This document shows positions 2,917 through 27,949 of a stretch of DNA of 64,000 nt, piece after piece. The stretch spans positions 124,001 through 188,000 of the forward strand of contig JAILQX010000018.1 of the NCBI GenBank assembly GCA_024698705.1. Direction: 5' to 3'. Origin of the DNA: Lachnospiraceae bacterium (lineage in GTDB: Bacteria > Bacillota > Clostridia > Lachnospirales > Lachnospiraceae). The notes beneath the pieces were generated by a model, which searched no databases, was not told the origin of the DNA, and saw only the letters and a program-made list of their open reading frames with translations. The translations under genes and the position numbers were made by a program. How positions within the stretch are numbered: position 1 is the first letter of the stretch; each line of letters opens with the position of its first letter.

Positions 2917-4260
2917 TCAATAATATATATGCGTGACTGTCGTTTCTTCACCGGGTGCTATATATAACCATACATTATCAAACTGTTCACCCGTTTCATG
3001 ATCATAGACCGTCACGCTGAGGCTGTAGGCTTCATCAAAGGCCGAGCACTCATCCGAATACTGTACTTTTCTTTCGGGATATTTCCCCGAAACAAACGCA
3101 GATCTGCCCCCTGATACCACATCAGTATTTATCCCCAGATTTCTTATCAGGTTTCCAAACAGTTCGTCATCAATACAGTTTCTGTTATTCCACTCAAGTT
3201 TTACATCAAGATCATCATCATTTATCAGCATCATATATATGCGCGGATCGGTCTGATATATGATCTCATCCTTTTTATCCTGCATATATTTTTCTTCATC
3301 TTCATGCCAGCTTTCATATCCCGCATCCTGTCTGTGATCGGGAATGTCAAAATTATCATTTATGAACTTGCCGACATAATTCGTCACCTTCATGGCTCCC
3401 GACGGATTAAGGTGCGAATCCTCATCATAGAGGTCCGTATTGTAATCCACTGTATCCATGTCCCAGAAATTGATATAATCTATCCCGTATTCACCGGCCA
3501 CATCGTAGATCACATGTGCCGCCGCCTGTGCTTCATTTCTGTGCGGGGGATAAGGTATCCACGTGAGCACTATATCAATATCCCTGCTCTGGCATTCCTG
3601 TATGATCTTTTCGGCATATGTTCTTGCAAGTGAAATGTCCTCATACTTTATACTCGGGTCGATGATCTCGTATTCCACAGGTGTTGCGACTTCGATCCTT
3701 CTGTCAGCGCCTCTCTGCCTGTTATACTCCACATTGAAGTCCTTCTCTTCCAGCTGGTTCCAGCGATTGTGATACAGGCAGAAATCCCACAGCATTTCAG
3801 CCGTATCCGCTTCGGGGTTGTCCCATGTCAGATCATAGACGGCACGTACCTTGTTGACGCTGAGCGGGAAACAATCCATCGCCTTGTGCAGGTATGCATA
3901 TTCTCCGGAAATCTTTTCATTTTCCGTCCATCCGTAGCAGTCAAGTACCACCAGTTTCGGCTCTGCATAATCCAAGGCATTTATAAGAGTCCAGTAAGAT
4001 ACTGCAAGTGTTGTGGAATGGTTTGCCAGATTATATGATGTGTACCCATACTCGTGCCACAGCTCATTTGGGTAAATACCGTTTACCACATGACTTGTTC
4101 CCAGAAACAGGATGTCATAATCCTCGCAGTCGTCAAAGAAAGCTTTATTCTTTACATCGCTTTCCCTTCGGCGCACAACATCAGAGACCTTTACTAACAT
4201 TGCAAAGGTCAGGGCTGCTGTTGCAAGTATGCTTATTGTACGAAATAAAACCTTTTTCAT
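2917..4260 (-). CDS. SGNH/DltD-like membrane-anchored protein, partner of the MBOAT acyltransferase
   Basis: The 447-residue protein starts with a lysine-arginine N-terminus and one hydrophobic segment (about residues 7-24), so the rest is probably extracytoplasmic. It has a GTSH nucleophile block (54-57, Ser56) and DSHLNPSG (281-288), the usual positions of the Ser and Asp/His of SGNH-fold acyl-transfer proteins such as AlgX and DltD. In such systems the SGNH partner moves an acetyl group from the MBOAT protein to the exported polysaccharide. The gene directly follows the MBOAT gene at 4342, with an 81-bp gap. The start has GGAGAG five bases upstream. The polysaccharide substrate cannot be read from sequence. 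Confidence 0.75.
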   Translation of the reverse strand: MKKVLFRTISILATAALTFAMLVKVSDVVRRRESDVKNKAFFDDCEDYDILFLGTSHVVNGIYPNELWHEYGYTSYNLANHSTTLAVSYWTLINALDYAEPKLVVLDCYGWTENEKISGEYAYLHKAMDCFPLSVNKVRAVYDLTWDNPEADTAEMLWDFCLYHNRWNQLEEKDFNVEYNRQRGADRRIEVATPVEYEIIDPSIKYEDISLARTYAEKIIQECQSRDIDIVLTWIPYPPHRNEAQAAAHVIYDVAGEYGIDYINFWDMDTVDYNTDLYDEDSHLNPSGAMKVTNYVGKFINDNFDIPDHRQDAGYESWHEDEEKYMQDKKDEIIYQTDPRIYMMLINDDDLDVKLEWNNRNCIDDELFGNLIRNLGINTDVVSGGRSAFVSGKYPERKVQYSDECSAFDEAYSLSVTVYDHETGEQFDNVWLYIAPGEETTVTHIYY

Positions 4261-8759: not shown

Positions 8760-9848
8760 CTATAAACCGAGTTTTTTCAGTCGTTTCATGTACTCGTCCA
8801 CCACGATCCGACGGTCAAATCTTTCAGAGACATACTCTCTTCCGGCTTTGCCCATTTCCCGCTGTTCATCCTCGGATAAGGCTATGAATCTGCGGACAGC
8901 CTCCGTAAGCTTCTCCTTATCTTTCATAGGAACCACGTATCCGGTTTTTCCGTCTATAACCGTCTCGAGGCATCCCGCTTTATCGGTCGTTATGACCGCT
9001 CTTCCGCAGGCTGCGGATTCCAGGCAGACATTGGACATGCCTTCGGGATAAAATGACGGATGTATGATACATTTGACCTGTTCGATGTACGGTCTGACAT
9101 CCTTCACGCTTCCGTGATAACTGATCACGCCCTCACTGTCCAGTTTCTTAAGCTCATCCTCGTAGGCTTCCTCACAATATCCAAGGATATGAAATTCAGC
9201 TTCCGGATGTTCCTCATGGATGGCCTTTGCACATGCCAGGTATTCCTCTATACCCTTTTCCTTCATGACCCTGCTGATAAATATAAATGCTGTTTTCCCT
9301 TCGGGCCACGGCAGATAAGAAAAACGCTCCGTATTTACCCCCGAGCCGGGCAGAAGCACCATTTCTGATCCCGTCATCTTATTGTCTTTAAAAAACTGAA
9401 GATTGCTCTCATTTTGCAAAAAAACCGCAGATGCTTTTTTTATGCCGCATTTGTAAAGTATTTTAGCCAATTTCCTGAGCATGCCGGGGTTTTCGAGTGC
9501 CGAACCCAGACCTGTGATATTGACCATATACGGTATCCTTTTAAGGCGGCAGGCCATTCCGCCGTATATATTGGGCTTTATTGTGTAACTCAATACTGCA
9601 TCCGGACGTATCTGCGAGAGTATCTTCATATACGACAAAAAGAGCTTAAAGTCCTGGACAGGATTCATTCCCCGCCTGTTCAGCCGCGTCTCGATGATCC
9701 TGCAGCCTTCCTTTTCAAGCTCTTCGTTATTGGTGGTATCCGGAAGTGATGCGTATACCTCGTATTCTTTTAGCAGATTTAAGACCAGTTCATTGCGAAA
9801 GCCATAGAGGCCGCTCGATGAATTGGCCAGGATAAGTATCTTCTTCAC
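8760..9848 (-). CDS. GT4-family glycosyltransferase (PglA-like)
   Basis: A 362-residue GT-B protein with an N-terminal acceptor half (KKILILANSSSGLYGFRNEL), NITGLGSALEN and LQNESN typical of PglA/CapM-like enzymes, and a donor half with FISRVMKEKGI and the motif YPEGMSNVCLESAACGR. PglA adds GalNAc to undecaprenyl-diphospho-bacillosamine in Campylobacter. The gene follows a PglC-like and an ATP-grasp gene, so it probably adds the second sugar here (inference). It starts with GTG and shares one base with the stop codon of the upstream gene (TAGTG at 9846-9850), a sign of translational coupling. A few dozen bases separate it from the next GT4 gene. Confidence 0.85.
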   Translation of the reverse strand: MKKILILANSSSGLYGFRNELVLNLLKEYEVYASLPDTTNNEELEKEGCRIIETRLNRRGMNPVQDFKLFLSYMKILSQIRPDAVLSYTIKPNIYGGMACRLKRIPYMVNITGLGSALENPGMLRKLAKILYKCGIKKASAVFLQNESNLQFFKDNKMTGSEMVLLPGSGVNTERFSYLPWPEGKTAFIFISRVMKEKGIEEYLACAKAIHEEHPEAEFHILGYCEEAYEDELKKLDSEGVISYHGSVKDVRPYIEQVKCIIHPSFYPEGMSNVCLESAACGRAVITTDKAGCLETVIDGKTGYVVPMKDKEKLTEAVRRFIALSEDEQREMGKAGREYVSERFDRRIVVDEYMKRLKKLGL

Positions 9849-10828
9849 TATGGTACAAGCTCCGTATCACTCATGTCTTTTATCATGATCTCATTGTATT
9901 TCATCATGACTATACCATCTTTATAATCCCCGATCGTTATGGGGTTTTTATTTCCACTGAGATTGTTTATGATCTGTCTCGGGACATTTACTCCGCAGGC
10001 GTAAGCATGCGGATATCCGCCTCCGAATCTCGGATTGATCTCCGAGAAATAATACTCTCCGTCGACCTCAAATATATCTATATCGATTATCCCCTTAAAT
10101 CCGACCTCCTCAACAAATCTTACTATATCATCGGCAAGTTCGGGTATATGCACAGAAACGGATTTATCTGTTTCTCCGGCGCGCATCTTTATCTTCTTTT
10201 TGATGAATACCGAAGTGCATTTGCCGCTGAGCATGTCAATATAGGCATCAACACCATACTCTGTTCCGTCCATGTACTCTTGGATCATCAGGTCATCATA
10301 CATTGCAAATAAACCTTCAAGTTCCTTATCGGATGAAACCTTGTTGATATGCAGGCTTGCACTTCCGCATACCGGTTTTACAAATACCGGATAATCGATC
10401 TCTCCGGCCTTCTTTGCCTCGTAAAATGAAGCTGTATCCAGATAACACTTTGCTGTTTTTAGGCCTTTTTCCTTAAACAGTTTAGACATTCTATATTTGT
10501 TGAAACATGTTTCCACAAGATCATAGTCCGAAATGATCGGTGTCACACCGATCGCCTTAAACCTGTCGGCCTCTTTGGCCAGCATACTGAGTTCGGGATC
10601 TATGAGTGAGAGTACCGCATTTATCCCCTCTTCCCTGCATATATCCAGTATCCTGTCCATATAGCCGGGTACATTGATCCTCGGAACAAGGCAGAACTTA
10701 TCCGCATCATAAACAGCCGGTGCAAGATTACTGCAATCAGTGGCAACAACCTTACCGTCTTTTATCTCATTTTTAAAAAACTGAACCACCTTATTACGGG
10801 TTCCAGCGCTCAAAATAAGTATATTCAT
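9848..10828 (-). CDS. ATP-grasp enzyme of the glycan locus (substrate unknown)
   Basis: The 326-residue protein has an N-terminal Rossmann-like preATP-grasp part (MNILILSAGTRNKVV), then YPVFVKPVCGSAS with the ATP-binding Lys, and the metal-binding EINPRFGGG near residue 270. ATP-grasp enzymes make amide or ester bonds through acyl phosphates. In Campylobacter the acetyltransferase PglD accompanies PglC and PglE. Here no acetyltransferase is nearby and this gene takes that place, between the PglC-like and PglA-like genes. A reasonable inference is that it acylates the new amino group with an amino acid or other carboxylate. It could instead be a CarB-like ligase with an unrelated task. It is tightly coupled to its downstream neighbour. 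Confidence 0.75.
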   Translation of the reverse strand: MNILILSAGTRNKVVQFFKNEIKDGKVVATDCSNLAPAVYDADKFCLVPRINVPGYMDRILDICREEGINAVLSLIDPELSMLAKEADRFKAIGVTPIISDYDLVETCFNKYRMSKLFKEKGLKTAKCYLDTASFYEAKKAGEIDYPVFVKPVCGSASLHINKVSSDKELEGLFAMYDDLMIQEYMDGTEYGVDAYIDMLSGKCTSVFIKKKIKMRAGETDKSVSVHIPELADDIVRFVEEVGFKGIIDIDIFEVDGEYYFSEINPRFGGGYPHAYACGVNVPRQIINNLSGNKNPITIGDYKDGIVMMKYNEIMIKDMSDTELVP

Positions 10829-10831
10829 GTA

Positions 10832-11524
10832 TCAATCCTGTTCTTTTTCGAGTTTTCCGGTCCTCGCAAGTCTTTCCCGTCTGATCTCGGCAAAATTGCC
10901 TTCGATCATACGCGTGTCTTCGGCAACCTGATCGGAGTGACCGATCACCGTTTTTATCGTCATCCCGATGACCTTCATATCCATAAGAAAGCTCAGATTC
11001 TCCACGTACTTAACGTCCATTTCAAAACGTTTATCCCAGTCAACCGTATTTCTTCCGCTTGCCTGGGCCAGCCCCGTAAGTCCGGGTCTTACCGTATGTC
11101 TGAGTTTTTCTCTTTCGGTATAATAGGGCAGATAAGCCACAAGAAGAGGCCTGGGGCCTATAAAACTCATATCACCTTTTATTATGCAAAAAAGTTCCGG
11201 CAGTTCGTCAAGACTGGTCTTTCTCAAAAATATACCGAATTTTGTAAGTCTGACATTGTCCGGCAGGAGTTTTCCGTTTTCATCTCTTTCATCGGTCATT
11301 GTCCTGAATTTGTATAACCTGAAGATCTTTTCATCCTTACCGGGTCTGTCCTGTGTAAATAAGACCGGCGATCCCAGTTTAATGCGTACCAGAACAGCCA
11401 CTATCAGATACAGCCAGCAAAATAATACAAGCACGAGCAAGCCGCAGATAAGATCCAGAGGACGTTTTATAAACTTTTCATAGATACCGTACGGCTTGTG
11501 TGTATTACCCACTAAACAAAGCAC
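10832..11524 (-). CDS. PglC-like phosphoglycosyl transferase (initiating sugar transferase)
   Basis: A 230-residue monotopic transferase of the small PglC type: one N-terminal membrane helix (about residues 22-45), then the catalytic domain with KFRTMTDERDENG, the Asp-Glu dyad in SLDELPEL, GDMSFIGPRPLLV and the VRPGLTGLAQASGRN segment. It resembles Campylobacter PglC along its whole length. PglC moves a phospho-sugar from a UDP-sugar to undecaprenyl phosphate, so this enzyme probably starts a lipid-linked glycan, likely with a diamino-trideoxy sugar made by the two genes upstream. The chosen start overlaps the upstream aminotransferase gene by 13 bp. A start a few codons later is possible. 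Confidence 0.88.
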   Translation of the reverse strand: MLCLVGNTHKPYGIYEKFIKRPLDLICGLLVLVLFCWLYLIVAVLVRIKLGSPVLFTQDRPGKDEKIFRLYKFRTMTDERDENGKLLPDNVRLTKFGIFLRKTSLDELPELFCIIKGDMSFIGPRPLLVAYLPYYTEREKLRHTVRPGLTGLAQASGRNTVDWDKRFEMDVKYVENLSFLMDMKVIGMTIKTVIGHSDQVAEDTRMIEGNFAEIRRERLARTGKLEKEQD

Positions 11525-12690
11525 CTCTTAACTGTTGCTATTATCCTTTCCATATCTTCCGGTGTGTTCTTTATATCACTCGGAAGACAGAGACCGTGTC
11601 TGAATATATCCCCTCCAACGGATCCGTCCCAGCCTTCACCGTTGTCTCCCTTTACAGGTGCGGTATTCGGCTGAATACCGTCGATAGTAAAGAAATCATT
11701 TTCGGCATATACGGGCTGCAGGTTCATTGGCTTCCATATCGGTCTGCTTTCGATATTTTCCGAATCGAGTGCATCCATGACCATATCGGGCGTTGTGTCA
11801 CTGAGTTTCGGATCTATTAACATACATGAGAGCCAGCAGTTGGCATCTCCGTCGGGATTGAGCGGATTCATCGTGATCGCGGGTATGTCCGCAAAGGCTT
11901 CCTTATATTGCCTGTAAATATCTTTTTTCAGCTTCTTATGTTCAGCCAGATGCAGCAGCTGGCCTCTTCCTATACCGGCCACTATATTGCTCATACGGTA
12001 ATTATAGCCTATCTCGGTATGCTGATAATACCTAGCGGGATCCCTTGTCTGGGTCGCATACCATGTAGCCTTCTTTGTATCTTCTTCATTGTTGCTGACA
12101 AGCATTCCGCCACCCGAGGTGGTTATTATCTTATTGCCGTTAAAACTGTATATGCCAATGTTACCGAAGGTTCCGCAATATCTTCCCTTATAGGTCGATC
12201 CGAGAGCCTCTGCGGCATCTTCTATGACAGGGGTTCCGTGCTCGGCCGCTATTGCCATGATCTCGTCGATCTTTGCCGGTGTTCCGTAAAGATGTGCATA
12301 GACGATCGCCTTGGGATCCGGATATTTTTCGTATGCCTTTTTCAGGGCCTCCGGATCAAGATTCCATGTGTTTCTCTCCGAATCTATGAATACGGGCACC
12401 GCCTTCTCATATGTAATGGGATTGCAGGTTGCCGCAAATGTAAGGGATGATGTAAATACGATATCTCCCTGTTTAACATTAAGGAGCTTCAATGCAAGAT
12501 GTATCGCCGCTGTTCCGGATGAAAGTGCCGAAGCATGACCGATACCCACATACTCAGCCATTTCCTTCTCAAAAGCCGTAACATTCGGTCCCAGTGGAGC
12601 TACCCAGTTGGTATCGAAAGCCTCCTTTATGAATTGCTGTTCCTCACCGTGCATAGCGGGTGAAGACAGATATATCCTTTTTGTATCCAT
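11512..12690 (-). CDS. DegT/DnrJ/EryC1 sugar aminotransferase (PglE-like)
   Basis: This 392-residue PLP enzyme has SGTAAIHLAL for phosphate binding, the aspartate in PVIEDAAEALGS, and the cofactor lysine in SFNGNKIITTSGGG, a stretch typical of PglE. PglE converts UDP-4-keto-6-deoxy-GlcNAc to the 4-amino sugar. The substrate would come from the membrane dehydratase encoded immediately upstream at 12715. The C-terminal part carries an unusual glycine-rich segment (GDNGEGWDGSVGGD) before the final helices. It might alternatively act in the first steps toward pseudaminic acid, since no PseC is seen in the window, but its motifs favour the bacillosamine-type reaction. Confidence 0.88.
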   Translation of the reverse strand: MDTKRIYLSSPAMHGEEQQFIKEAFDTNWVAPLGPNVTAFEKEMAEYVGIGHASALSSGTAAIHLALKLLNVKQGDIVFTSSLTFAATCNPITYEKAVPVFIDSERNTWNLDPEALKKAYEKYPDPKAIVYAHLYGTPAKIDEIMAIAAEHGTPVIEDAAEALGSTYKGRYCGTFGNIGIYSFNGNKIITTSGGGMLVSNNEEDTKKATWYATQTRDPARYYQHTEIGYNYRMSNIVAGIGRGQLLHLAEHKKLKKDIYRQYKEAFADIPAITMNPLNPDGDANCWLSCMLIDPKLSDTTPDMVMDALDSENIESRPIWKPMNLQPVYAENDFFTIDGIQPNTAPVKGDNGEGWDGSVGGDIFRHGLCLPSDIKNTPEDMERIIATVKRCFV

Positions 12691-12714
12691 AAAAACCTCC
12701 CGAAGACCGCACCT

Positions 12715-14589
12715 TTATTTTGGCCCATTGTCTTTATTGTATACATAGGTCGGTACAATCTCATGAATCCTTTCTCTTATATCCGCACACTCATTCTTTG
12801 TCTCTTCCTTGAGTTCCTTGAGCTGGGCATAGAATTTCATCTCATCTATCTCGATGGGCTTTCCGATATGGATAAGCTTGTTGTCCGTCTCCTTCATGCC
12901 CTCTTCATCCATCAAAAGTTCTTCGTAGAGCTTTTCGCCGGGTCTTAAGCCCGTAAATTCTATCTTTATATCTTCATTTACCTTATATCCGGAGAGTCTG
13001 ATCAGGTTCTGGGCAAGATCAAGTATCTTCACCGGTTCACCCATATCAAGTACGAATATCTCTCCGCCCTTCGCATAGACACCTGCCTGAAGGACAAGCG
13101 ATACCGCTTCAGGTATGGTCATAAAGTATCTTATGATATCCGGATGAGTGACCGTTACGGGCCCTCCTGCGGCTATCTGCTTCTTGAACAGAGGTATTAC
13201 GGATCCGTTGCTTCCCAGGACATTTCCGAACCTTACCGCAACAAATTCGGTATCGTAATGCTTGTCGAAGCTTTGTATTATCATTTCACAGATACGCTTG
13301 CTCGCTCCCATGATATTGGTGGGATTAACAGCCTTATCCGTACTTATCATGACAAATTTCTTAACCCCGTAGAATGCCGCTGCCTGCGCGGTCTTCCATG
13401 TTCCGAATACGTTGTTCTTTATTGCTTCGTTGGGGCTGGTCTCCATCAGCGGAACATGCTTATGTGCAGCCGCATGATAAACGATATCCGGCTTATATTG
13501 TTCAAATATGCTGTTCATGCGGTTTGTATTTCGCACTGAAGCTATCAGTACTATGAGGTCCAGTTCGGGATATTTGTATAAAAGCTCCTGCTGTATCTCA
13601 TAAGCACTGTTCTCATATATATCAACTATGATGAGTCTTGCCGGATTATGGCCCGCTATCTGCCTACACAACTCGCTTCCGATGGAACCACCTCCACCGG
13701 TTACAAGAACGGTCTTTCCGCCTATGTAACCCATGATCGCGTCCAGATCCACATTTACGGGCTCTCTTCCGAGAAGGTCTTCAACTTCAACATCACGCAG
13801 CTTGCTTACGCTCACTTCACCGTTTACAAGCTGGTAGATACCGGGCAGGACACGCAGTTTACATTCGGTATCCTTGCATATATCAAGTATTTCCCTTATG
13901 ACGAGCCTGTTCGCACTCGGTATGGCCACAAATATCTCATCTATCGAATGTGTGTCAACACACTCAATGATCTTGTCCCTGCCGCCTTCGACCTTAACAC
14001 CCTGGATGTAACTGCCCCATTTACTCTTATCGTCATCGATGAGACACGCAACGGTCATGGTCGAATAATTGCTTGTAACTATTTCCCTTATGATTGAATT
14101 GCCCGCATCACCCGCACCGATGATCATGACTCTCGTCGCATTGTTGCGGTTCATCATCTTATGCTTCTTGCTCCGCAAAAACCTGTATGAGAACCTGCTG
14201 GCAAATATCATCATTATCAGTACGAATACGTACATAAAATAATAGCTCTTCGGAACACCCTGTACACCGATCCTCATGATATGGAGGCCCAGCCCGTCAA
14301 CTGCTCCGGAAACAATACATGCAAATACAAGATTCTGCAGTTCGGTCTCACCCGCAAATGCCCAGAGACTGCTGTAGAGCTTGAAAAAATAGAATATGGC
14401 TATGGTGAACAGTATATTGATCGGCAGATATCTGGTTATGGTACCCATGAAATGCGAAGGTATAGAATCCCAATTCAATTCGTACCTGATCCAGATCGCC
14501 GCATAACTTGCAACAACTATGCTGATAACATCATATATGATTAGAAATGTTCTCCTGTAAAGGAGCTTTGCATTAATTACTTTCTTCAT
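12715..14589 (-). CDS. Membrane UDP-GlcNAc 4,6-dehydratase (PglF/WbpM/CapD-like)
   Basis: About 624 residues: four N-terminal membrane helices, a CoA-binding-like Rossmann domain (VMIIGAGDAGNSIIRE), then an SDR dehydratase domain with VLVTGGGGSIGSEL and the SMK-type catalytic region around STDKAVNPTNIMGASKR. This is the full PglF/WbpM layout. The enzyme dehydrates UDP-GlcNAc to UDP-4-keto-6-deoxy-GlcNAc, the substrate for the aminotransferase encoded next. I chose the ATG at 14589 because AAGGG lies five bases upstream and the protein then begins MKKVINAKLLYRR. An ATG at 14631 adds 14 residues but overlaps the upstream gene more. The shorter form still overlaps that gene by 17 bp. Confidence 0.9.
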   Translation of the reverse strand: MKKVINAKLLYRRTFLIIYDVISIVVASYAAIWIRYELNWDSIPSHFMGTITRYLPINILFTIAIFYFFKLYSSLWAFAGETELQNLVFACIVSGAVDGLGLHIMRIGVQGVPKSYYFMYVFVLIMMIFASRFSYRFLRSKKHKMMNRNNATRVMIIGAGDAGNSIIREIVTSNYSTMTVACLIDDDKSKWGSYIQGVKVEGGRDKIIECVDTHSIDEIFVAIPSANRLVIREILDICKDTECKLRVLPGIYQLVNGEVSVSKLRDVEVEDLLGREPVNVDLDAIMGYIGGKTVLVTGGGGSIGSELCRQIAGHNPARLIIVDIYENSAYEIQQELLYKYPELDLIVLIASVRNTNRMNSIFEQYKPDIVYHAAAHKHVPLMETSPNEAIKNNVFGTWKTAQAAAFYGVKKFVMISTDKAVNPTNIMGASKRICEMIIQSFDKHYDTEFVAVRFGNVLGSNGSVIPLFKKQIAAGGPVTVTHPDIIRYFMTIPEAVSLVLQAGVYAKGGEIFVLDMGEPVKILDLAQNLIRLSGYKVNEDIKIEFTGLRPGEKLYEELLMDEEGMKETDNKLIHIGKPIEIDEMKFYAQLKELKEETKNECADIRERIHEIVPTYVYNKDNGPK

Positions 14590-17113
14590 CTTTACCCTTT
14601 TTAACCGGCTCACCGGCAGGTGTTCCGACACATTCCCGATAACACAGAGGCATCATCGCAAGAAATACTGCGCAGGCAAACGGATTGCACGGGTGCAGTA
14701 TCCATTCCACAAGGCTCGCCATACAGAAGCAGACCAGTATGACACTTCCGAATATCCTGTATTCATCCTCCCTGTTTTTAAATGCCCTTATCAAATATAT
14801 AATTATAACATATCCTGTGAACAATAGAAAATATATACCCAATACTATGCCGTGATCGTGTGCGACCTGAAGGAAGGTATTGTGCGCATGGATGACCGTC
14901 TCACCGTTAGGCATGACCGTTTCCATTTCCTCATGTCCCCACAGGTTCCAGTTTTCGATATAATTCCTGAAAATATCAAGTCGGCCGTTACTCATGTCGG
15001 TAACATCCTCTTCGGATCCGCCGTCATTTTCATCCGGTGCTTCTTCAGCAGCGTATACCGGTAATGTAAACATAGGTGCGGAAGCCGCAAATGTCTCCCG
15101 AGCGGCATCTGCCGTATTGGCCTTAAGATCGATCTTTGCCACTTCGGCGTCCGGATCGTAATTGAATACCTTCTTTGCAAATTCCTTTGCAAACTGCTCT
15201 ATGGTCATATAATCTGCATCGGCATAGGGCATACCCTTGCCGAAACTGAAATCCCTGACTTCAAACTCAAATACCACGGGATCGTTGGCAAGCCTCGGAA
15301 CCGTGTCCGTAAGCGCAAACGTAACCGGAAACATGTATATGACCGCGGCCGCCATAAGACCGGCCAGTTTTATCCCACTCTTGATCCTGTCTGCCCGGCA
15401 ATAATATGATCCTGTCACTGTAAGACCGAATAAAAGCATTGTAAATGCAGACAGAAAACCGGTTCTCGACATCGTAAATATAAGATACGAGAATACCATG
15501 CCGAAGGTGAATAATCTCGGCAGATATGTCTTTATGCCCTTTCCCTTTCTGTATACCTCATAAAGTCTCATCCATGCCGCACAGAGTATCATGGCCAGGT
15601 AGTAAGCCGTTACTGTCACAGTGTGATATCCCATGTTGTATCTGTAATAAACATAATAGTAATAAGGCCTGTGACGAAGTGAATACCAGACCATCATGTA
15701 AAACGTAAGTATGATCCCGCTGCACAGATCCTTTGTAAATCCTTCCCTGTCCTTCCAGAAAAACAGCCGGTGCATCAGGAGCACACAAGCTCCGACCAGA
15801 AGCCAGGTCCAGTTTCTGCCGTTGTTGAGCGCGCATATCCCTATCGCAAATACCGCAAAAGGTATGAGGAACATAAGATTCGGTTTCGGTAATGAAACCT
15901 TTTTACGGCAGGCTCTGACTGTTGAAAAGATCAGATTTATTATGACAAATCCTCCGACAGCTATTGCCCAGGCGTTCAGTCTGAAGAGCTCGTTCCAATA
16001 TTCCTCGGCGCTGCCGAAATTATTTTTGTAATACACATATCCAAGTATCGGTCCGGCTATGAGCCATATACCGTTAAAGATGTTCAGTATCTCTTTTCTG
16101 TCATATGTCGATATGAGCACAAAGCAAAAGGCTATGACAAATTTCGTCACACTGTAGTAATGATATATATCATACAGACCGTTCATATACTCATAGCAAT
16201 ACCACAGGACAGTAGCGATCGCTGTGATCCTGACTATCCTTCCGATCGGCAATGATCCGAAACGGGCCTTTAGGCTGACATGCCTTGTTTCAAAAAGTTT
16301 TCCCCAAAGCACATCACAGAAATTAACGATATAAGCCAGAAATGCTATGAGCATCCATATGCCCATAGTTATAAATGCGTTATTCTTTGTATCAAAACCA
16401 AATATCTTTGTGACCATGACGATATAAGCCGTTGCAAGAGCGGCTGCCGCAAGCAAAGGATTGCATGCATATGCGATATATCGCCTGATCATGACTTCTT
16501 TTTTGAGTTTCTTGAACACAAAGGCCAAACCGCCGCAAAGAGCTATAAGAACGAGCGTTGCAATAAGGCATACCCACCACTTGAACGGACATCTGTAGTT
16601 ATATCTGACTATCAGATCGTATTCCGGAACTTCAGCTCCGCCGTAGGCCATAAAATAATTGACGGGCGAGGTCGTGGTACTTCTGTCCTCGTAAGCCAGA
16701 TAAAGATCCGCCGTCAGTCCTTCCACTATAAATGAATACTCTTTTCCCGCTTCCATTGGATATCTTATCGGGATATGTATAAATCCCGGCGCGGCAAAAT
16801 CCACGTCAACGTTATAAAACTGCTCATATATCTGTTCATGATTCTCATCATACAGTCTGAAGGTGACTATCTGTCCCGACATATCATTGCATACATAGAG
16901 ATCGACGCTCTTAAGCTCGCCTTTAACACCCTCAAACATCTGAGCCATGTTGTATTCAACACTGACGGGGTCCGATTCCCTTGCGATGATCTCATCGGAT
17001 CTTGCCGTAAAGCCGTAAGTGATAAGACCGGACCAGAGACCAATCGCGATCAATATCGCAATAATGACAACCGTATATTCAATTGCATGTCCCAAAGAAA
17101 CCTTTTTATTCAT
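14573..17113 (-). CDS. O-antigen polymerase/ligase-like polytopic membrane protein (Wzy_C family)
   Basis: The 846-residue protein has an N-terminal helix, a short extracytoplasmic beta-rich domain (about residues 40-170), then a long series of membrane helices. A large outer loop near the C-terminus ends in GRLDIFRNYIENWNLWG followed by HAHNTFLQVAHDHGI. That His-containing block is the hallmark of the Wzy/WaaL/PglL superfamily, whose members polymerise lipid-linked repeats or ligate them to acceptors on the outer face. The N-terminal extracytoplasmic domain is an addition to the core family fold. Its place between the bacillosamine-type genes and the YidC-TagF-like fusion suggests it polymerises or attaches this glycan (inference). 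Confidence 0.8.
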   Translation of the reverse strand: MNKKVSLGHAIEYTVVIIAILIAIGLWSGLITYGFTARSDEIIARESDPVSVEYNMAQMFEGVKGELKSVDLYVCNDMSGQIVTFRLYDENHEQIYEQFYNVDVDFAAPGFIHIPIRYPMEAGKEYSFIVEGLTADLYLAYEDRSTTTSPVNYFMAYGGAEVPEYDLIVRYNYRCPFKWWVCLIATLVLIALCGGLAFVFKKLKKEVMIRRYIAYACNPLLAAAALATAYIVMVTKIFGFDTKNNAFITMGIWMLIAFLAYIVNFCDVLWGKLFETRHVSLKARFGSLPIGRIVRITAIATVLWYCYEYMNGLYDIYHYYSVTKFVIAFCFVLISTYDRKEILNIFNGIWLIAGPILGYVYYKNNFGSAEEYWNELFRLNAWAIAVGGFVIINLIFSTVRACRKKVSLPKPNLMFLIPFAVFAIGICALNNGRNWTWLLVGACVLLMHRLFFWKDREGFTKDLCSGIILTFYMMVWYSLRHRPYYYYVYYRYNMGYHTVTVTAYYLAMILCAAWMRLYEVYRKGKGIKTYLPRLFTFGMVFSYLIFTMSRTGFLSAFTMLLFGLTVTGSYYCRADRIKSGIKLAGLMAAAVIYMFPVTFALTDTVPRLANDPVVFEFEVRDFSFGKGMPYADADYMTIEQFAKEFAKKVFNYDPDAEVAKIDLKANTADAARETFAASAPMFTLPVYAAEEAPDENDGGSEEDVTDMSNGRLDIFRNYIENWNLWGHEEMETVMPNGETVIHAHNTFLQVAHDHGIVLGIYFLLFTGYVIIIYLIRAFKNREDEYRIFGSVILVCFCMASLVEWILHPCNPFACAVFLAMMPLCYRECVGTPAGEPVKKGKDEESN

Positions 17114-17121
17114 TGTCCGTC

Positions 17122-18996
17122 CTATTTCTTAGAGTATTCTATAAGCTTTTTGATTATGTATTTACCGCCGACTTCGCCGCTCTTTCCGATGTTGTAAAGG
17201 TATTGATCCCTTACCTTCTCAAGTGATTCGGGCGTGTATTCATTGTCATTTAACAGTTTTCTGACTGTATCCGCCAAAGTATCAAGCTTGTCCGGATCCA
17301 CGGATATGCCGATCTCGTCACGTACCGTGATATCGAACGGTTCGATATCTATTTCCTCATAGTCCGGATTCATGACCTTCATGGGCGTATTGATGAACAG
17401 AGTAGGTTTAAGTGTCGTAAATGAATACTCATAGGCGATCCCCGACCAGTCCGTTATCATAACATCCGCATTGAATACGGTCTTGTTGGAAGAAAAATCC
17501 GTCTGGAGTTCAAAGTCCTCGTGACCTTTGTATCTGTCCCTGAGTGCTTCCAGCTTATCCTCAAAATGACGGACATACTGTGGATGCGGCCGCACGATCA
17601 CATGCCATCCGTTTCCGAGAAGACTGTCAAGCATGGGTTCTATGCACAGATCCATCAGATTGTCCTGCTGCCATGAGGGTGCGATAAGGATCTCCTTAGG
17701 ATCATTTGCGGGTTCACCGCTATTCTTATAGGCCTCGATCATGTTGTCTATAAGTCCGTATCCGACCTTTACGAGTTCCTTAGGTTCAAGTCCGTATTTT
17801 GCCTCCTGAGCTCTGAATTCCTTGTAGGTGATGTCATTGGGAACAAATATCGTATCAAATGCATCAAATGCATGCTTTCTGAAGGTCATATTGACGCTTC
17901 CGATCGCGTGGTCCATGTAGATATATTCAACATCATCCACCATAGACTTCTTGATGTGGTATCTCTGCAGATCGGGAGTCGTCATTACGCATATGTCCGC
18001 TTCAAGCTTCATAAGCTGGACGATGAGCTTATTTTCACTCATATAATAGACTCTGAAATTATCCGACGCTTTATTGAACACGTCATCCTTCGGATCGTTG
18101 GTGATGTAGTGGATGATTATGTCAGTCTTAGCGAGGATGTATTCTATGACATTTGCAAAATACTTGTAGAAGCCGTTCTTTTCCGAATAGAATACGATCT
18201 GCTTGTAGCCGAATTTATTGAATCTTTTGATGTCTTCCTTCTCTTTTGAAACAAATTCCTTATCGACCTTTTTCTTATTTGCCGCGGCAAAACCGGCAAC
18301 CTTATCAAGTTCCTTCTTGGACTCGGCAAGTGCTTCATAATCGATATGCTTCTTGGGATTGATACAGAAATTAAGTATATACATCTGGATTATCGCCAGA
18401 ATATTTCCGACTATCCAATACAGTCCGACACCGCCCTGGACAAAAAATCCGAGATAGAGTGAAAGTCCCACGGAAATACCCATGGTTATCATCTTATTGG
18501 CCTTGCCCTGCTCTGACTGGAGCACATTGGACAGATTTTGTGTAAAGCACATAAGCCACGCACTGACGGCCGCCACAATGGGGATCAATATACTTTTGCC
18601 GCCCACCTTTGAAGGTACAGCTCCCAGATTGATTCCTAAAAACATCGTATCGCTCACATCAAAAGCCTTCAGACCTTCAACGACTCCCATAAGTATTATC
18701 AACTGTACTATGACAGGGATAAGGTCGTACATGGGATGATAATTATGCTTTTTATACAGCTTGTAGTTCTCTTCCGATATAAGATCGCTGCTTCCGAAGA
18801 ACTTTGCCTTTATCATGTTCATCTCGGGGTACATTTTGACCATCTTTATGGAGTTGATCTGTACCATGATGGAAATGGGCAGCTGGATCACCTTTGCCAC
18901 CAGTGTGAAAAATACTATTGACCATCCGTAATCGCCGATGAGTTTGTAACAGATGCTCATCAGATATGCGAATATCTTACCGAAAAATGCTATCAT
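17122..18996 (-). CDS. Fusion of a YidC/Oxa1-like insertase with a CDP-glycerol glycerophosphotransferase (TagF/TarB-like) domain
   Basis: Starting at the ATG at 18996 the protein has 624 residues. Residues 1 to about 215 are YidC-like: LMSICYKLIGDYGWSIVFFT, then LPISIMVQINSIKMVKMYP, MYDLIPVIVQLIILMG, and a last helix pair with GVGLYWIVGN. The conserved groove arginine is Lys here (VAKVIQLP). After a charged linker (about 220-260), residues 265-624 match Glyphos_transf: YIYMDHAIGS, VPNDITYKEF, IAPSWQQ, VRPHPQY and ITDWSGIAYEYS. TagF-type enzymes polymerise glycerol phosphate. AAAGGA precedes this ATG at 5-nt spacing. A longer frame to 19080 would begin in palindromic intergenic DNA. I infer a membrane-tethered phosphoglycerol transferase. 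Confidence 0.85.
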   Translation of the reverse strand: MIAFFGKIFAYLMSICYKLIGDYGWSIVFFTLVAKVIQLPISIMVQINSIKMVKMYPEMNMIKAKFFGSSDLISEENYKLYKKHNYHPMYDLIPVIVQLIILMGVVEGLKAFDVSDTMFLGINLGAVPSKVGGKSILIPIVAAVSAWLMCFTQNLSNVLQSEQGKANKMITMGISVGLSLYLGFFVQGGVGLYWIVGNILAIIQMYILNFCINPKKHIDYEALAESKKELDKVAGFAAANKKKVDKEFVSKEKEDIKRFNKFGYKQIVFYSEKNGFYKYFANVIEYILAKTDIIIHYITNDPKDDVFNKASDNFRVYYMSENKLIVQLMKLEADICVMTTPDLQRYHIKKSMVDDVEYIYMDHAIGSVNMTFRKHAFDAFDTIFVPNDITYKEFRAQEAKYGLEPKELVKVGYGLIDNMIEAYKNSGEPANDPKEILIAPSWQQDNLMDLCIEPMLDSLLGNGWHVIVRPHPQYVRHFEDKLEALRDRYKGHEDFELQTDFSSNKTVFNADVMITDWSGIAYEYSFTTLKPTLFINTPMKVMNPDYEEIDIEPFDITVRDEIGISVDPDKLDTLADTVRKLLNDNEYTPESLEKVRDQYLYNIGKSGEVGGKYIIKKLIEYSKK

Positions 18997-19025: not shown

Positions 19026-19077
19026 ATGCAGATTTGCCTTCGGCAAAGCGCGATCGCTGCATAGCACCCCTGCGGGG
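19026..19077. other. Cluster of short palindromes upstream of the YidC-TagF-like gene
   Basis: ATGCAG (19026-19031) pairs with CTGCAT (19057-19062) around a TTTGCC-TTC-GGCAAA hairpin (19033-19047). CCCC-TGC-GGGG (19067-19077) follows. It lies between the terminator of the small membrane-protein gene and the ribosome binding site at about 19003-19008. It may be a REP-like element or an RNA structure in the leader. No function can be assigned. Confidence 0.6.
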
Positions 19078-19094
19078 CACTACATTTTACGAAC

Positions 19095-19122
19095 AAAAGC
19101 CAAGCTGTTTTGCTTGGCTTTT
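19095..19122 (-). terminator. Rho-independent terminator after the small membrane-protein gene
   Basis: An 11-bp perfect stem AAAAGCCAAGC/GCTTGGCTTTT with loop TGTTTT, followed on the minus strand by TTTTGTT. It begins 16 bp after the stop codon at 19138 and would uncouple this gene, at least in part, from the fusion gene downstream. Confidence 0.85.
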
Positions 19123-19137
19123 GGTTAATTCCCTGAA

Positions 19138-19404
19138 TTACTTATCCGTGTTATCTTCAACCTCTTCATCGAAGTGTATTTCCCTCTTTTCCTGAGCCCC
19201 TTTATCCTTCTTGAAAAAAGCCGCTATCTTGTGTCTGAATACCGTGATCACGGCTCCGAGTGCTATGATGACCGCTCCGACTGCCTGTATCACGTATGTC
19301 GTAGCCGAAGGATCTATGTATGCGTGTGCGTAACACGTCATTGTCACAAACATTGCCGAGAAGAAATAAACAAACTTAAGCACGTTAAATACTGTTTTTT
19401 TCAT
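19138..19404 (-). CDS. Small membrane protein with a YIDP motif, next to the YidC-TagF-like fusion
   Basis: The 88-residue protein has an N-terminal signal-like helix (about residues 8-27) ending in YAHAYIDPSATTY, a second hydrophobic helix (about 38-56), and a charged tail rich in Lys then Glu/Asp. Small proteins with a YIDP-plus-helix layout often lie beside sulfatase or glycan genes in Firmicutes (recollection of the pattern, not checked). It might be an accessory of the neighbouring fusion protein, but function is unknown. It has its own promoter-like sequence, a hairpin beside its AAAAAGGAG ribosome binding site, and its own terminator. Confidence 0.75.
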   Translation of the reverse strand: MKKTVFNVLKFVYFFSAMFVTMTCYAHAYIDPSATTYVIQAVGAVIIALGAVITVFRHKIAAFFKKDKGAQEKREIHFDEEVEDNTDK

Positions 19405-23619: not shown

Positions 23620-25161
23620 ATGAAAAAAATAACCGATGTATGCAAAAACAATCGCCTGTCTCTGGTTTACTCATTTGTACTGAGTTTTCTTGTGATCTAT
23701 GGCTTTATATTGTACCGCGGTTCAAAGGACAGTATTGCCGCATTGCTGCTCACTATCACTGCTGCTCTTTGCTTATGTCCTTTTGTAAATCTTGCCGTGG
23801 TATGGCTTATCGGCCTCGAACCCGGTGAACGTGCTACCGCAGGGAAACCCGGAGTGCTTTTCGGGGCGCTTTGCTTTGCTTTGATGTTCATACTGCAATT
23901 GCCGACATTTCTGGCATTTTACCCCGGCATCATCTTCTACGATATCAACACACAGATCGAGCAATATGAAGCAAGAGCTTTTTCCGCAAGTCACCCGTTG
24001 CTCCATACATTTTTTATGGGTTTTTTCAAAAATCTTTTTGCCGATCCCAATACCGGCTATGCATGGGCCACAGTTGTTCAAATGATACTGGCCGATCTGT
24101 GTCTGGCCTATATCCTGTTATATGTGGGCTCTAAGATCGGCAGCTACATCCTTCCGATCATCACAGCCTGCTTTTACGGTGCATTTCCTCTTTGTTCGTT
24201 GCTTATGATCTCTTCCACCAAGGATATATTGTTTTCGGTTCTTCTGTCCGTGGTATTTATCGATATATACAGGCAGCTTACCGAAGATTGTTCCAAACCG
24301 ACACTTATACGTATGATCTTTTGCGGCATACTCATGATACTCATGCGTTCCAATGCCATCCATGCAATGATGATCGCCGCTGTTATCATTCTCGCGGTTC
24401 TGATATATAAGAAATTACCCTGCAGAAAGATCGCCATTTATATGCTGACTGTGATCCTTGTATCCAAATTTGCCCAGACAGCCATGATACGCTGCCTTGA
24501 TGCTTATCCCGGGTCCATAAAAGAAGCAATGAGCGTTCCGATACAGATCATGGGGCGCATCTATGTTACGACAGATGATCCGGAAGAACAAAAGATCATC
24601 GAAAAATACATTCCGGATCCCGGTGAATATACTTATTACATCTCAGACCCTTTAAAGAAACAGCCTGAATTTGACACGCTGGACAGTGAATGCAAGCATT
24701 TCCTTCTGGATACCGCATTGCTGTCGCTCAAGCACCCGCTTATTGCCTTCAACGCATTTATGCTGAATACACAGGGTTATTGGGATATGTGGCACAGCGC
24801 TTATCAGGAAGAGCATCATTATCTTGCAAGAGAAGATCTGCGCGGAGGAGCATATATCGCTTCGAAGCTGCCCGCTCTCAAGGATCTCTACCTTGCCCAT
24901 TTCAGGTATCTGGATCTCAGTATTTACAACCCATTAAGTCCGTTTCTGCAGATGGGTATATATTTTCATATAATGCTCTTTATACTTCTGCGCTCCGTAA
25001 AGCGTCGTGACCTTCCGATGTCATTGTCACTTATGCTTCCCGCCGCTTATACACTGACTCTTCTGTTCGGACCGTCGGCTATCTTAAGATACGGCTTTGC
25101 GTTCATCATACTTGCTCCGGTGGTCTTACTCCTCAGTTACCGAAGGAGTATTTCCCTTTAA
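23620..25161 (+). CDS. DUF6020-like polytopic membrane protein (possible GT-C glycosyltransferase)
   Basis: A 513-residue protein with about ten membrane helices. After the second or third helix comes LAFYPGIIFYDINTQIEQYE and then SASHPLLHTFFMG. An acidic residue in the first outer loop plus a conserved HPLLH are features of the DUF6020 family and resemble the first loop of GT-C enzymes. A large loop (about 310-430) precedes the last helices. Function is not established. A lipid-linked-sugar glycosyltransferase is likely from context. The gene is on the opposite strand to its neighbours, and its 3' end overlaps that of the related gene at 25126 by 36 bp. Its ribosome binding site is weak. Confidence 0.7.
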   Translation: MKKITDVCKNNRLSLVYSFVLSFLVIYGFILYRGSKDSIAALLLTITAALCLCPFVNLAVVWLIGLEPGERATAGKPGVLFGALCFALMFILQLPTFLAFYPGIIFYDINTQIEQYEARAFSASHPLLHTFFMGFFKNLFADPNTGYAWATVVQMILADLCLAYILLYVGSKIGSYILPIITACFYGAFPLCSLLMISSTKDILFSVLLSVVFIDIYRQLTEDCSKPTLIRMIFCGILMILMRSNAIHAMMIAAVIILAVLIYKKLPCRKIAIYMLTVILVSKFAQTAMIRCLDAYPGSIKEAMSVPIQIMGRIYVTTDDPEEQKIIEKYIPDPGEYTYYISDPLKKQPEFDTLDSECKHFLLDTALLSLKHPLIAFNAFMLNTQGYWDMWHSAYQEEHHYLAREDLRGGAYIASKLPALKDLYLAHFRYLDLSIYNPLSPFLQMGIYFHIMLFILLRSVKRRDLPMSLSLMLPAAYTLTLLFGPSAILRYGFAFIILAPVVLLLSYRRSISL

Positions 25162-27018
25162 TATGTGTACCAGCATCATCGGGACCGCAAACCACAGGAT
25201 CAGAACATATCTCACCAGTACCGTCGGGCCGAGCAATACCGTAAGCCACAGTATAAGGACCGGAAGATAAACGATCATTGCTTTCCTATCCTTCTCCCTG
25301 ATAAATCCAACGAAAGCCCAGGCAAATATCCACATCATAAAGCCCGGTGCGAACAGCATGCTTATCACAGGCACTGTCTGCTGGAACAGTTCAAGGGAAA
25401 TATTACGATAGAATCTCTCATATAACGGAAACAGACTGACTCGCTTTCCGGGTGGTTCCGTTTCAAATCCGAAATAAGAACTGTTCTCATATCTGTAGGT
25501 ATACATCTGCTGCCCGCCGTATACATTGATGATCATATCCGGATACCAGAAGCCGTAGCTGTTCACAAGCCACGCGTTGAGATAAACGAGCGGCTTTCTC
25601 ATACCGATCTTAAGCCACAGTTTTCGGTATTTTCCGGGATCTCTTTCATACGCCCCATTATCAAAGCCGGACTTGAGTATATCCGAGCATCTGGCACTGT
25701 AGGTTATCAGATAGTTTTCCGGAAGGACCTCATACAAGGTCTGTTTTTCCTCTTCCGAAAATGTTTCGGGTGCATATTTATAAACTCTTGCCATCTGCTG
25801 TATGCCTACGGTCAGCATCTCCTGATGCTCTCCGTCACTTGCATGGGTGGCAAGTTTAAGACAATGATCGGTTCCAAGATACAGGATGATACTCAATGCC
25901 ATAAGTATGACGATACGGTATTTGAATATCTTATTTCCTTTACCGGCGTTTTCTTTGGTTTCACCGGCATTCTCCCTGCGTTCACGAACGGATATCATAA
26001 GAAGGATGATGATCGCGGAAACGATATATGCATAAACACCGTTTTTGCGAAGCAGCATCATAAGAACCGACATGAGGGTCAATAGCAGAGGCTTCTCCTT
26101 TGATTCAAATATCCATTCGTACATCAGTATGATAAGCATAAGAAATGCCATCGTGAACAGTTCGTCCTTTGCCGAACAAACGGCATACATCGGAAATAGG
26201 GGGAACAGTCCGAAGAAAAAGACAAAGCCGACAACGCCCTTTCTTCCGATCCCCATATCAAACAGCTTAAGTATGAAATATCCAACCGCAAGAGAGCATA
26301 CGATCATCTGCAGCAGTGTATACACCGCGATGCCCGTATTTGTTCCCAATCCCAGTACTTCTGCCGCACGTATTATTTTCCCTAAAAGCAGCACGTGAAG
26401 CAGCGGATGATGTGCGTTGTATATATTTGTAAATGCCTGTGCGTATTCATCTGTAGCATCATAGACGAACGCTCCCGGGAAAAAGGCCATAAACGTCGGG
26501 AACCACAATATGAATATCATGGCCCATATCTTTACAAGCCGGGGTCTTGTTTCATCTGTTTTTTTTTGCGCGGATTTCGCTCTGAAGACAGACCACAGAG
26601 CATTTATCACAGGTGCCATAAATAAACCAAAGCAGATCGCTCCGGCATAAAAAAAGAGATCCTTAAAGTTAACATTATCCGTGGATTCCAGCGATGCGCC
26701 CATATGAAGGGCAAAAGACAATGCAAAAGAAAAGACATAAGCAAATACCCTGTCTCTTGCCGACGCCGATCTGAAGCCGGCCATAAGCTTATACAGGATA
26801 TATGCACCCATTCCGAAAAATAAAAATGCAAAAAAACTGTTTGTATATGTGATCCTTGATATCCTGTCGTAAATAACCGCCCCTTCCCTGCCGAGGCTGC
26901 CGGATATCGAGATCGTACCGGGGGCGACTATCCCCACCGTACCGACAGTTCCCATAAATGCAAGGATAAAAGAAAGACAGATGTCGGAGATCTTTGTGTT
27001 ATTATCACTTTTTTTCAT
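25126..27018 (-). CDS. DUF6020-like polytopic membrane protein (paralogue of the gene at 23620)
   Basis: The protein has about 630 residues and twelve or so membrane helices. The signature AFFPGAFVYDATDEYAQAF followed by NAHHPLLHVLLLG matches the same region of the convergent gene at 23620, so both belong to one family. Both also share a late segment with PVLILW and GPTVLVRY. The ATG at 27018 (MKKSDNNTK) is preferred. A frame to 27045 overlaps the upstream GT2 gene further and lacks a ribosome binding site. The gene overlaps the GT2 gene at 27005 by 14 bp, suggesting a coupled pair in which the GT2 enzyme makes a polyprenyl-phosphate sugar that this protein transfers outside (inference). Confidence 0.7.
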   Translation of the reverse strand: MKKSDNNTKISDICLSFILAFMGTVGTVGIVAPGTISISGSLGREGAVIYDRISRITYTNSFFAFLFFGMGAYILYKLMAGFRSASARDRVFAYVFSFALSFALHMGASLESTDNVNFKDLFFYAGAICFGLFMAPVINALWSVFRAKSAQKKTDETRPRLVKIWAMIFILWFPTFMAFFPGAFVYDATDEYAQAFTNIYNAHHPLLHVLLLGKIIRAAEVLGLGTNTGIAVYTLLQMIVCSLAVGYFILKLFDMGIGRKGVVGFVFFFGLFPLFPMYAVCSAKDELFTMAFLMLIILMYEWIFESKEKPLLLTLMSVLMMLLRKNGVYAYIVSAIIILLMISVRERRENAGETKENAGKGNKIFKYRIVILMALSIILYLGTDHCLKLATHASDGEHQEMLTVGIQQMARVYKYAPETFSEEEKQTLYEVLPENYLITYSARCSDILKSGFDNGAYERDPGKYRKLWLKIGMRKPLVYLNAWLVNSYGFWYPDMIINVYGGQQMYTYRYENSSYFGFETEPPGKRVSLFPLYERFYRNISLELFQQTVPVISMLFAPGFMMWIFAWAFVGFIREKDRKAMIVYLPVLILWLTVLLGPTVLVRYVLILWFAVPMMLVHILKGNTPSVTEE

Positions 27019-27949
27019 CTGTTCCGAGAACCTCTCTGACAACATACTGAGGAGCGTTGTTCATGCCTATATACATCCGTCCTATGTATTCACCGAGAAG
27101 CCCCAACATGAACAATATCATACCACCGAGAAACATTATACCCGACATGAGAGCCGAAAAACCTACAGCCACCATATCCTGCATTACGAGTTTTTTAATG
27201 ATCGTATATATTCCGTACAGGAAGCCGAAAAACGCGCATGTCATACCCGTATATGTGGCGATCCTCAAAGGCTTTACCGAAAATGCGGTAAATCCGTTCA
27301 TCCACAATCCGAGCAATTTCCCGAGAGTATATCCGGAATGTCCGACTTCACGCTCTCTGTGGTTTACGTCCACGTTGGCTATCTTCTTCGTCGATCTGAG
27401 CACAAGGCCGATGACATAGGGATATGATTTGTCATATCTGAGCATCTCATCGACGATAAATCTCCTTGCGGCAAAATAACTTGAAACATACAGTTCCTTT
27501 GGCTTTCCAAGCAAAAAACGCGTCATCTGCTCATTGATGCTGCTTCCGAAATTCCTGAACATCGAATGCTTCTTATGCTCATATCTCGCATACACGACAT
27601 CCTCGCCCTCTTCGAGCTTGTCAAGAAGCTTTCCGACTTCATTTGCGGGAGTCTGTCCGTCATCATCAAGACATACAAGTATATCTCCGGTGACATAATG
27701 GAATCCCGCCATGAGAGCAGCATGCTGTCCGAAATTTTTGGCAAGATCCACACCTGTTATATTGTCATATTTTTCCGTGAGTGAACGTATCACATTGAAA
27801 GTCCCGTCGGGACTGCAATCATTTACAAGGATGATCTCGTAAACATATCTGTCCTTCATCGACTCCATCGTGGTCATTATCTCATCGATTACTCCGGTAA
27901 GGGTCTGTTCACTTCTGTAACACGGTATGCAAAAACTTATCTTTTTCAT
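27005..27949 (-). CDS. GT2-family polyprenyl-phosphate glycosyltransferase (GtrB/ArnC-like)
   Basis: The 314-residue protein has a GT-A domain with ISFCIPCYRSEQTL, EIILVNDCSPDGT and LVCLDDDGQTP (the DxD metal site), then VNHREREVGHSGY, which is typical of ArnC/GtrB enzymes. Two C-terminal membrane helices (about 228-250 and 263-290) complete the family layout. These enzymes attach a sugar to undecaprenyl phosphate. A dTDP-Fuc4N-type aminotransferase (29849) lies upstream on the same strand, so a deoxyamino sugar is one possible donor (inference). The downstream DUF6020-like gene overlaps its end. Confidence 0.88.
   Translation of the reverse strand: MKKISFCIPCYRSEQTLTGVIDEIMTTMESMKDRYVYEIILVNDCSPDGTFNVIRSLTEKYDNITGVDLAKNFGQHAALMAGFHYVTGDILVCLDDDGQTPANEVGKLLDKLEEGEDVVYARYEHKKHSMFRNFGSSINEQMTRFLLGKPKELYVSSYFAARRFIVDEMLRYDKSYPYVIGLVLRSTKKIANVDVNHREREVGHSGYTLGKLLGLWMNGFTAFSVKPLRIATYTGMTCAFFGFLYGIYTIIKKLVMQDMVAVGFSALMSGIMFLGGMILFMLGLLGEYIGRMYIGMNNAPQYVVREVLGTDEKK

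Follow-up and report, generated by a model that had tools for sequence, protein, structure and literature searches.

Members of the YidC/Oxa1/SpoIIIJ family (PF02096; PDB 3wo7, 3wvf, 6al2) and of the TagF/TarL/TagB family (PF04464; PDB 3l7l, 8va1) are the closest described relatives of the two halves of the protein analyzed here. PF04464 enzymes act on cytosolic lipid-linked sugars, and we know of no TagF with a YidC domain. MprF is a lipid flippase fused to a lipid-modifying synthase. Lipid scrambling has been observed in vitro for E. coli YidC, Oxa1, and Get1, and in simulation for those Oxa1 members that were examined (PMC10491306); YidC also cooperates with the glycolipid MPIase (PMC10881803). 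For the Pnt systems, which tailor surfaces using CMP-AEP, LicD-like transferases are indicated, and neither "YidC" nor "glycerophosphotransferase" occurs in the main text of their description (Rice et al. 2019, PMC6697681). A literature search that reached a minority of subscription journals gave no description of a YidC-transferase fusion, and the available portion of a paper on SecY/YidC evolution (PMC8675477) contains nothing on a YidC-GT fusion. The window, a 64,000-nucleotide stretch of a draft Lachnospiraceae genome, encodes such a fusion in a glycan locus (Table 1).

Domains and setting of the fusion

The first-pass annotation had described one polypeptide with a YidC core and a TagF-like domain, and profile searches assign both halves to the named families. 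PF02096 matches residues 23–209 with 95.4 bits (cut-off 35), PF04464 covers residues 263–534, and the NCBIfam model TIGR03592 scores 90 bits (cut-off 84.3). The predicted structure has a YidC fold in its N-terminal half and a GT-B fold that matches TagF 3l7l at a Foldseek E of 4e-11. A PDB sequence search with the fusion profile matched YidC and OXA1L and no TagF-type chain up to E 1; the GT match rests on Pfam and structure. The model thus places a YidC/Oxa1 fold and a predicted TagF-type GT-B fold in one chain. Because the YidC C-terminus is cytosolic, the GT domain would lie on the cytosolic side. The RPHPQ and DWSG motifs, reported earlier as retained, are present, and a motif check found the GT motifs in 82 of 82 fusions.

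Table 1. Features of the fusion locus in window coordinates
Feature	Position	Strand	Basis or remark
AlkP-superfamily membrane enzyme, 554 aa	5850..7514	minus	~10 kb downstream of the fusion, same strand; probable partner
Downstream glycan genes	9848..14631	minus	Pfam and NCBIfam
Multi-TM protein, 846 aa	14573..17113	minus	Next gene downstream of the fusion; ten hydrophobic stretches (simple scan)
YidC-GT fusion gene, 624 aa	17122..18996	minus	ORF and translation, Pfam, structure model and structure matches
GT-B transferase domain, TagF/TarL type, residues 262–624	17125..18213	minus	PF04464 E 1.3e-9
GT domain motifs H363, RPHPQ (469–473), TDWSG (515–519)			Residue numbers of the window fusion
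Linker, residues 217–261, two predicted helices	18214..18348	minus	Model helices 220–239, 246–262
YidC/Oxa1-like domain, residues 1–216	18349..18996	minus	N-terminal helix, TM1, cytosolic hairpin C1, TM2–TM5
Groove Lys35 codon (Arg in classical YidC)	18892..18894	minus	
Small membrane protein, 88 aa, AYIDPSATTYVIQ core	19138..19404	minus	A3 HMM E 6.8e-40; directly upstream of the fusion

The downstream glycan genes code for a 638-aa dehydratase (Polysacc_synt_2), a LegC-like aminotransferase, a sugar-1-P transferase (Bac_transf), and an ATP-grasp protein. The 846-aa protein has no NCBIfam match and no Pfam match at E 0.001 (weak DUF1634, 0.92); by eye it looks like an O-antigen ligase or polymerase. 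Adjoining the AlkP gene are an MBOAT O-acyltransferase (4342–5838, minus) and a weak GDSL-like match (2917–4260, minus), a pair that resembles acyl decoration of glycans. Elsewhere in the window, two convergent, slightly overlapping, and mutually similar genes (23620–25161, plus; 25126–27045, minus) code for DUF6020 membrane proteins (PF19484).

Occurrence, constraint, and phylogeny

A collection scan of 84,980 species genomes gave 146 candidate stretches and 110 relatives, of which the best 80 were used. With the loci of the window's genus added, 94 loci were reduced to 82 by merging those with identical last 520 residues; four YidC-AlkP loci and L154 and L155 stand outside this set, and ORFs were called by first start codon. 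There are at least 82 distinct fusions, mostly from Lachnospiraceae records, and these locus counts share ancestry and are not independent events. Both domains were matched in all 80 scan loci (best 80 of 110), one of which is cut at a contig end, and other sources among these 80 are some Oscillospiraceae, Ruminococcaceae, and Clostridia and one Solobacterium. Fusion-bearing records without a MAG mark include NC2008, A4, IMSAGC_002, IMSAGC_011, and An861. A false join of two genes by sequencing or assembly, which the first-pass annotation gave as grounds for refutation, is vanishingly improbable: the source assembly is a draft in 54 contigs, but 82 distinct fusions, isolates included, and the 80 scan loci with both domains rule it out. 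Many gut and rumen bacteria carry a YidC-enzyme fusion as a real, conserved protein. Among 41 genomes, YidC-GT fusions occur in 12, all of the window's genus, with that of G009 cut by a contig end. Three matches at E ≤1e-60 were found in 398 genomes spread evenly over the phylum (the source genome, fusion G442, and the GT-only homolog G420), so the fusion is uncommon across the phylum.

The source genome (2.54 Mb) carries a second fusion (L005:5144–7078, 644 aa) that is 46%–47% identical to that in the window. No PF02096 gene beyond the two fusions was found in this draft assembly; rpmH and rnpA are likewise missing, so its housekeeping yidC is probably in an assembly gap. A separate yidC near the origin, a check proposed at first pass, is present in five sister genomes (L137–L141), where it codes for 428–441 aa at an rnpA locus adjoining dnaA (gene names by eye). 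The fusion is thus distinct from housekeeping YidC and away from the rnpA/rpmH position, in agreement with the earlier reading of a two-domain membrane transferase in a glycan locus.

The change of the groove Arg to Lys, also noted at first pass, holds for the window fusion and, overall, for 80 of the 82 fusions, with Arg in the other two. The same position is Asn in four of four YidC-AlkP proteins, and groove chemistry may therefore differ in these. Within the fusions, polar and aromatic TM residues Q98, N198, Y193, and W194 are invariant. Conservation was compared between 27 fusions and 22 housekeeping rows (<75% identity), and because the fusions are closer-knit, only differences between regions count: the entropy ratio of fusions to housekeeping YidC is 0.32 in C2, 0.43 in TM4, and 0.60 in C1, which are more constrained, and 1.03 in the outer loop, which is not. 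Judged from these alignments, the constrained inner loops and TM4 would fit a contact surface for the GT domain and its substrate. A tree was built from 61 YidC domains, of which 31 come from the 82 fusions, 26 are housekeeping, and four are YidC-AlkP rows; in it, GT fusions form a single clade with support of 100/100. A sister relationship of GT-fusion and AlkP-fusion YidC domains has an AU p of 0.45, with both on long branches.

The housekeeping proteins have a pattern of their own at the groove Arg position. Tyr occupies it in 11 of 12 from the window's family (L018, L019, L021, L022, L023, L025–L030) and Lys in the twelfth (L031); among the 14 from other families, ten have Arg and four have Lys. 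The family's housekeeping insertase would, by its sequence, be without the classical positive charge of the groove.

A recurring module and its donor genes

Two further proteins recur with the fusion as a module: a small protein with one TM and a membrane enzyme of the AlkP superfamily. Both, like the triple fusions described below, fall outside the coordinates covered at first pass. Members of the small-protein family share the core AYIDPSAVTYVIQ and have a signal-like stretch followed by one TM. In 69 of 82 fusion loci the small-protein gene is immediately upstream of the fusion, with a median gap of 12 nt. By HMM it occurs in 11 of 12 fusion genomes and in none of the 29 others; inside the genus the figures are 11 of 12 with a fusion versus zero of eight without. 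Four genomes carry it on a different contig from the fusion. Among the 13 other loci, it is downstream of the fusion in L005, separated from the fusion by one gene in L045, L071, L072, and L074, fused to the AlkP gene in L131, and absent upstream in L090, where the fusion is at the contig start. Six genus loci (L038, L039, L041, L042, L043, and L046) have no adjoining small-protein gene, and all of their genomes except that of L041 hold one elsewhere. In seven of 74 small proteins, taken from the first start codon, fewer than 22 residues precede the YIDP core; short N-tails are of the kind that YidC can translocate.

A protein of 113–146 aa ("sm6") replaces the small TM protein directly upstream of the fusion in L038, L041, L042, L043, and L046, and Pfam and NCBIfam searches found no known domain in the L043 copy. 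In the window, the gap between the small-protein gene and the fusion is 141 nt, and positions 19060–19137 (minus) form two strong hairpins (−33.5 kcal/mol, z −5.3). No terminator-like match was found in this region or on the minus strand searched; the hairpins are perhaps an attenuator or a repeat element. Promoter-like sites 5' of the small-protein gene are at chance level.

A member of the AlkP family is fused to, or within 8 kb on either strand of, 52 of 82 fusions, a count that leaves out the window copy ~10 kb away. Among the 58 loci flanked by 5 kb or more on each side (full-flank loci), 41 have such a member and 17 have no AlkP gene within 8 kb. Separate AlkP genes are on the strand of the fusion in 42 loci and only on the opposite strand in four. 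The source genome (2.54 Mb) has five family members, for which our arithmetic gives a chance expectation of ~3%–4% within 8 kb. The family occurs in 17 of the 41 genomes: all 12 with a fusion, three of eight others of the genus, and two outside it (G023, which has a YidC-AlkP protein, and G030, a weak partial match).

The partner has an AlkP fold, with five predicted N-terminal helices ahead of the AlkP domain. Its best sequence match is LtaS (E 2e-10), and by structure sulfatases tie with YejM. The Asn (of N-x6-D), Asp, Thr, and DHG are present in 23 of 23 rows of the family alignment (A4). None of these rows has the sulfatase CxPxR at the nucleophile, the only C-x-P-x-R being in L131 at residue 22, well away from the Thr, and the pattern is absent from the six triple fusions (residue 641 onward) and the four YidC-AlkP proteins. 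T-x-x-S-x-P, the motif of EptA-type enzymes, is complete in eight of 23 rows (Ser in 14, Pro in 15) and incomplete in the window copy.

The YidC-like domain is joined to the inner (GT) or the outer (AlkP) enzyme, depending on the protein. Plain YidC-GT proteins account for 76 of the 82 fusions, and the G442 protein (L155 locus) is a further one. Six of 82 are YidC-GT-AlkP triple fusions of 1205–1420 aa; Pfam was run on four of these, and in L127 the PF00884 match is weak (E 0.0017), yet the family HMM gives 5e-132. Four proteins of 842–910 aa are YidC-AlkP fusions, among them L051, which has a separate GT next door. The small protein is fused to AlkP in two cases (L131 and L155). A fusion of the small protein to the GT in L051 was dropped as a motif resemblance of 1.0 bit.

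The distant genome G420 has, in a row and without a YidC domain, AEP genes (28%–46% identity to our seeds by BLAST), a stand-alone GT (E 2e-99), the small protein (2e-8), and a pair of AlkP-like genes (7e-9 and 2e-5). Its sole PF02096 gene is a 243-aa frame. Going by this single case, the common core may consist of the GT, the small protein, and AlkP; one lineage may have acquired the YidC-like domain, or the other may have lost it.

Donor genes were sought within 8 kb of each fusion, with neighbor calls from BLAST and HMM seeds taken from the same loci and with Pfam and NCBIfam run on representatives only. They are present at 51 of 58 full-flank loci (AEP 37, choline 6, NTPt/CobD-like 6, GCT-Gfo 2; none at 7). 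Over all 82 loci, 65 have donor genes of some kind, and the counts are AEP 47, choline 7, NTPt/CobD-like 7, GCT-Gfo 3, AEP transaminase only 1, and none 17; those with none are the window locus and 16 others, including all six triple fusions, and some are cut by contig ends. The AEP set comprises an AEP transaminase (TIGR03301, 470 bits in L043), a CTP_transf-PEP mutase (TIGR02320), an NTP transferase, and a phosphonopyruvate decarboxylase (TIGR03297), and PEPM or PPD adjoins 37 of the 58 full-flank loci. The seven choline loci have an NTPt-choline kinase fusion or a choline kinase, and four have a BCCT choline transporter (Pfam, representatives). Some fusion loci have an NTPt-CobD-like enzyme that scores below the cut-off of the CobD model; CobD-like enzymes can decarboxylate phosphoserine to phosphoethanolamine. 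Beside the second fusion of the source genome are a class-V aminotransferase and a cytidylyltransferase (CTP_transf)-Gfo/Idh oxidoreductase fusion (L005:2325–3671, minus), which may make another CDP-amino-polyol. An AEP set unlinked to the window lies on contig C21 of the same genome, with AEPT, PEPM, and PPD 81%, 84%, and 68% identical to those of L043.

The donor class is well supported by gene neighborhood, and to judge from these neighbors the common feature of the donors would be a zwitterionic amino-alkyl phospho- or phosphonyl group. The enzyme half probably modifies cell-surface molecules with groups of a phosphocholine-like or phosphonate kind. Phosphoglycerol, named at first pass as the likely group, and CDP-glycerol as its obvious donor are disfavored, since neighboring genes point to AEP, choline, or ethanolamine-type donors, and do so in 51 of 58 loci.

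Possible mechanisms and comparison with known systems

We favor a membrane-embedded head-group transferase with a lipid path and an AlkP partner, an explanation that as a whole comes close to probable. Its first step is likely: with CMP-aminoethylphosphonate, CDP-choline, or a CDP-ethanolamine-type compound as donor, the cytosolic GT domain would pick up a zwitterionic amino-alkyl phospho or phosphonyl group. In the window genome the donor would be CMP-AEP from the unlinked cluster. Placement of this head group on a lipid or lipid-linked sugar seated in the YidC-like groove is somewhat probable. It is possible that the YidC-like domain, alone or together with the small TM protein, would then hold the lipid and let the head group cross the membrane. 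We suggest tentatively that the AlkP enzyme might decorate an exported glycan with the product outside, a step given less weight because the EptA-like Thr motif is so often incomplete. A lipid path through the YidC fold is plausible by analogy, since Oxa1 proteins scramble lipids in vitro.

Two other readings give the YidC half a different role, and G420 bears on both. Decoration might be cytosolic only, with the GT acting directly on a lipid-linked glycan on the inner side of the membrane, the YidC-like domain doing no more than dock the undecaprenyl-linked substrate, an ordinary flippase exporting the glycan, and AlkP acting as a separate hydrolase or transferase. This would agree with the cytosolic lipid-linked substrates of PF04464 enzymes in general, with the strongest constraint in the inner-face loops, and with a G420 GT that has no YidC, but it leaves the YidC-AlkP, YidC-GT-AlkP, and small protein-AlkP chains unexplained, and we consider it rather unlikely. 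Alternatively, the YidC half could be a dedicated insertase that places the small TM protein, and possibly AlkP as well, beside the transferase using them. The position of the small-protein gene, its near-perfect co-occurrence with the fusion, the short N-tails, and the retained groove Lys all favor insertion; G420 has the small protein and GT and no dedicated YidC, the YidC-AlkP proteins have Asn in the groove, and relatives possess a housekeeping YidC, and we regard this reading as unlikely. Of the roles proposed at first pass for the insertase half, a path for a lipid-linked substrate is therefore compatible with the data, and insertion of partners is a live rival.

That the YidC fold is simply an anchor or scaffold with no groove function is improbable. 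A YidC-less GT exists in G420, but Lys or Arg in the groove of 82 of 82 fusions, the four invariant TM residues, and the constraint on TM4 and the inner loops exceed what an anchor needs. G420 argues against an essential role for YidC, and the YidC part is absent from at least one version of the module, as this genome has no dedicated one. The preferred transferase with a lipid path can be carried further, to an Oxa1-superfamily insertase fold turned into a dedicated translocase of lipids or lipid-linked glycans that would load inside, flip via the YidC groove, and hand over to an AlkP-type transferase outside. We raise this as a possibility on the doubtful side; if true, the triple fusions would hold all three steps (load, flip, hand over) in a single polypeptide.

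The fusions suggest an insertase fold put to work on lipids or glycans, not only on proteins. In vitro scrambling by YidC/Oxa1 (PMC10491306) raises the question of whether insertase folds move lipids in living cells, and a natural protein that welds the YidC fold to a head-group transferase in the cytosol, with an AlkP-type enzyme added in six cases, makes this testable with one gene. For decoration with CMP-AEP and CDP-choline in Lachnospiraceae of the gut and rumen, the fusion also provides a candidate transferase. Since at least three fusions pass NCBI's YidC model, such enzymes may be named YidC by automatic annotation.

Compared with YidC/Oxa1/SpoIIIJ, the fusion has the same fold, five core TMs, cytosolic hairpin, and positive groove residue, and it is set apart by the enzyme domain at its C-terminus, its place in a glycan locus, inner loops with invariance specific to the fusions, and a long branch away from housekeeping YidC. 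It shares with TagF/TarL/TagB the predicted GT-B fold, the RPHPQ and DWS[SG] motifs, and His363, whereas its neighbors mostly make AEP, choline, or amino-alcohol donors and not clearly CDP-glycerol. With Pnt surface tailoring, as described by Rice et al. (2019, PMC6697681), it has in common PEP mutase and nucleotidyltransferase domains, an AEP transaminase, and a phosphonopyruvate decarboxylase; a Pnt-type gene set linked to the transferase is found in fusion loci, and that of the window genome is at an unlinked place. The AlkP partner resembles LtaS and other lipid-using AlkP-superfamily transferases in its five predicted N-terminal helices, AlkP domain, DHG, and Thr, although structure comparison singles out no such branch. 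The logic is like that of MprF, a cytosolic enzyme with a membrane domain that could flip its product, an analogy for which we claim no homology. Both domains and the CMP-AEP pathway are already known, and we regard their combination as a fresh variation on surface-decoration systems, one that would count as a different kind of system should the YidC half prove to move lipid.
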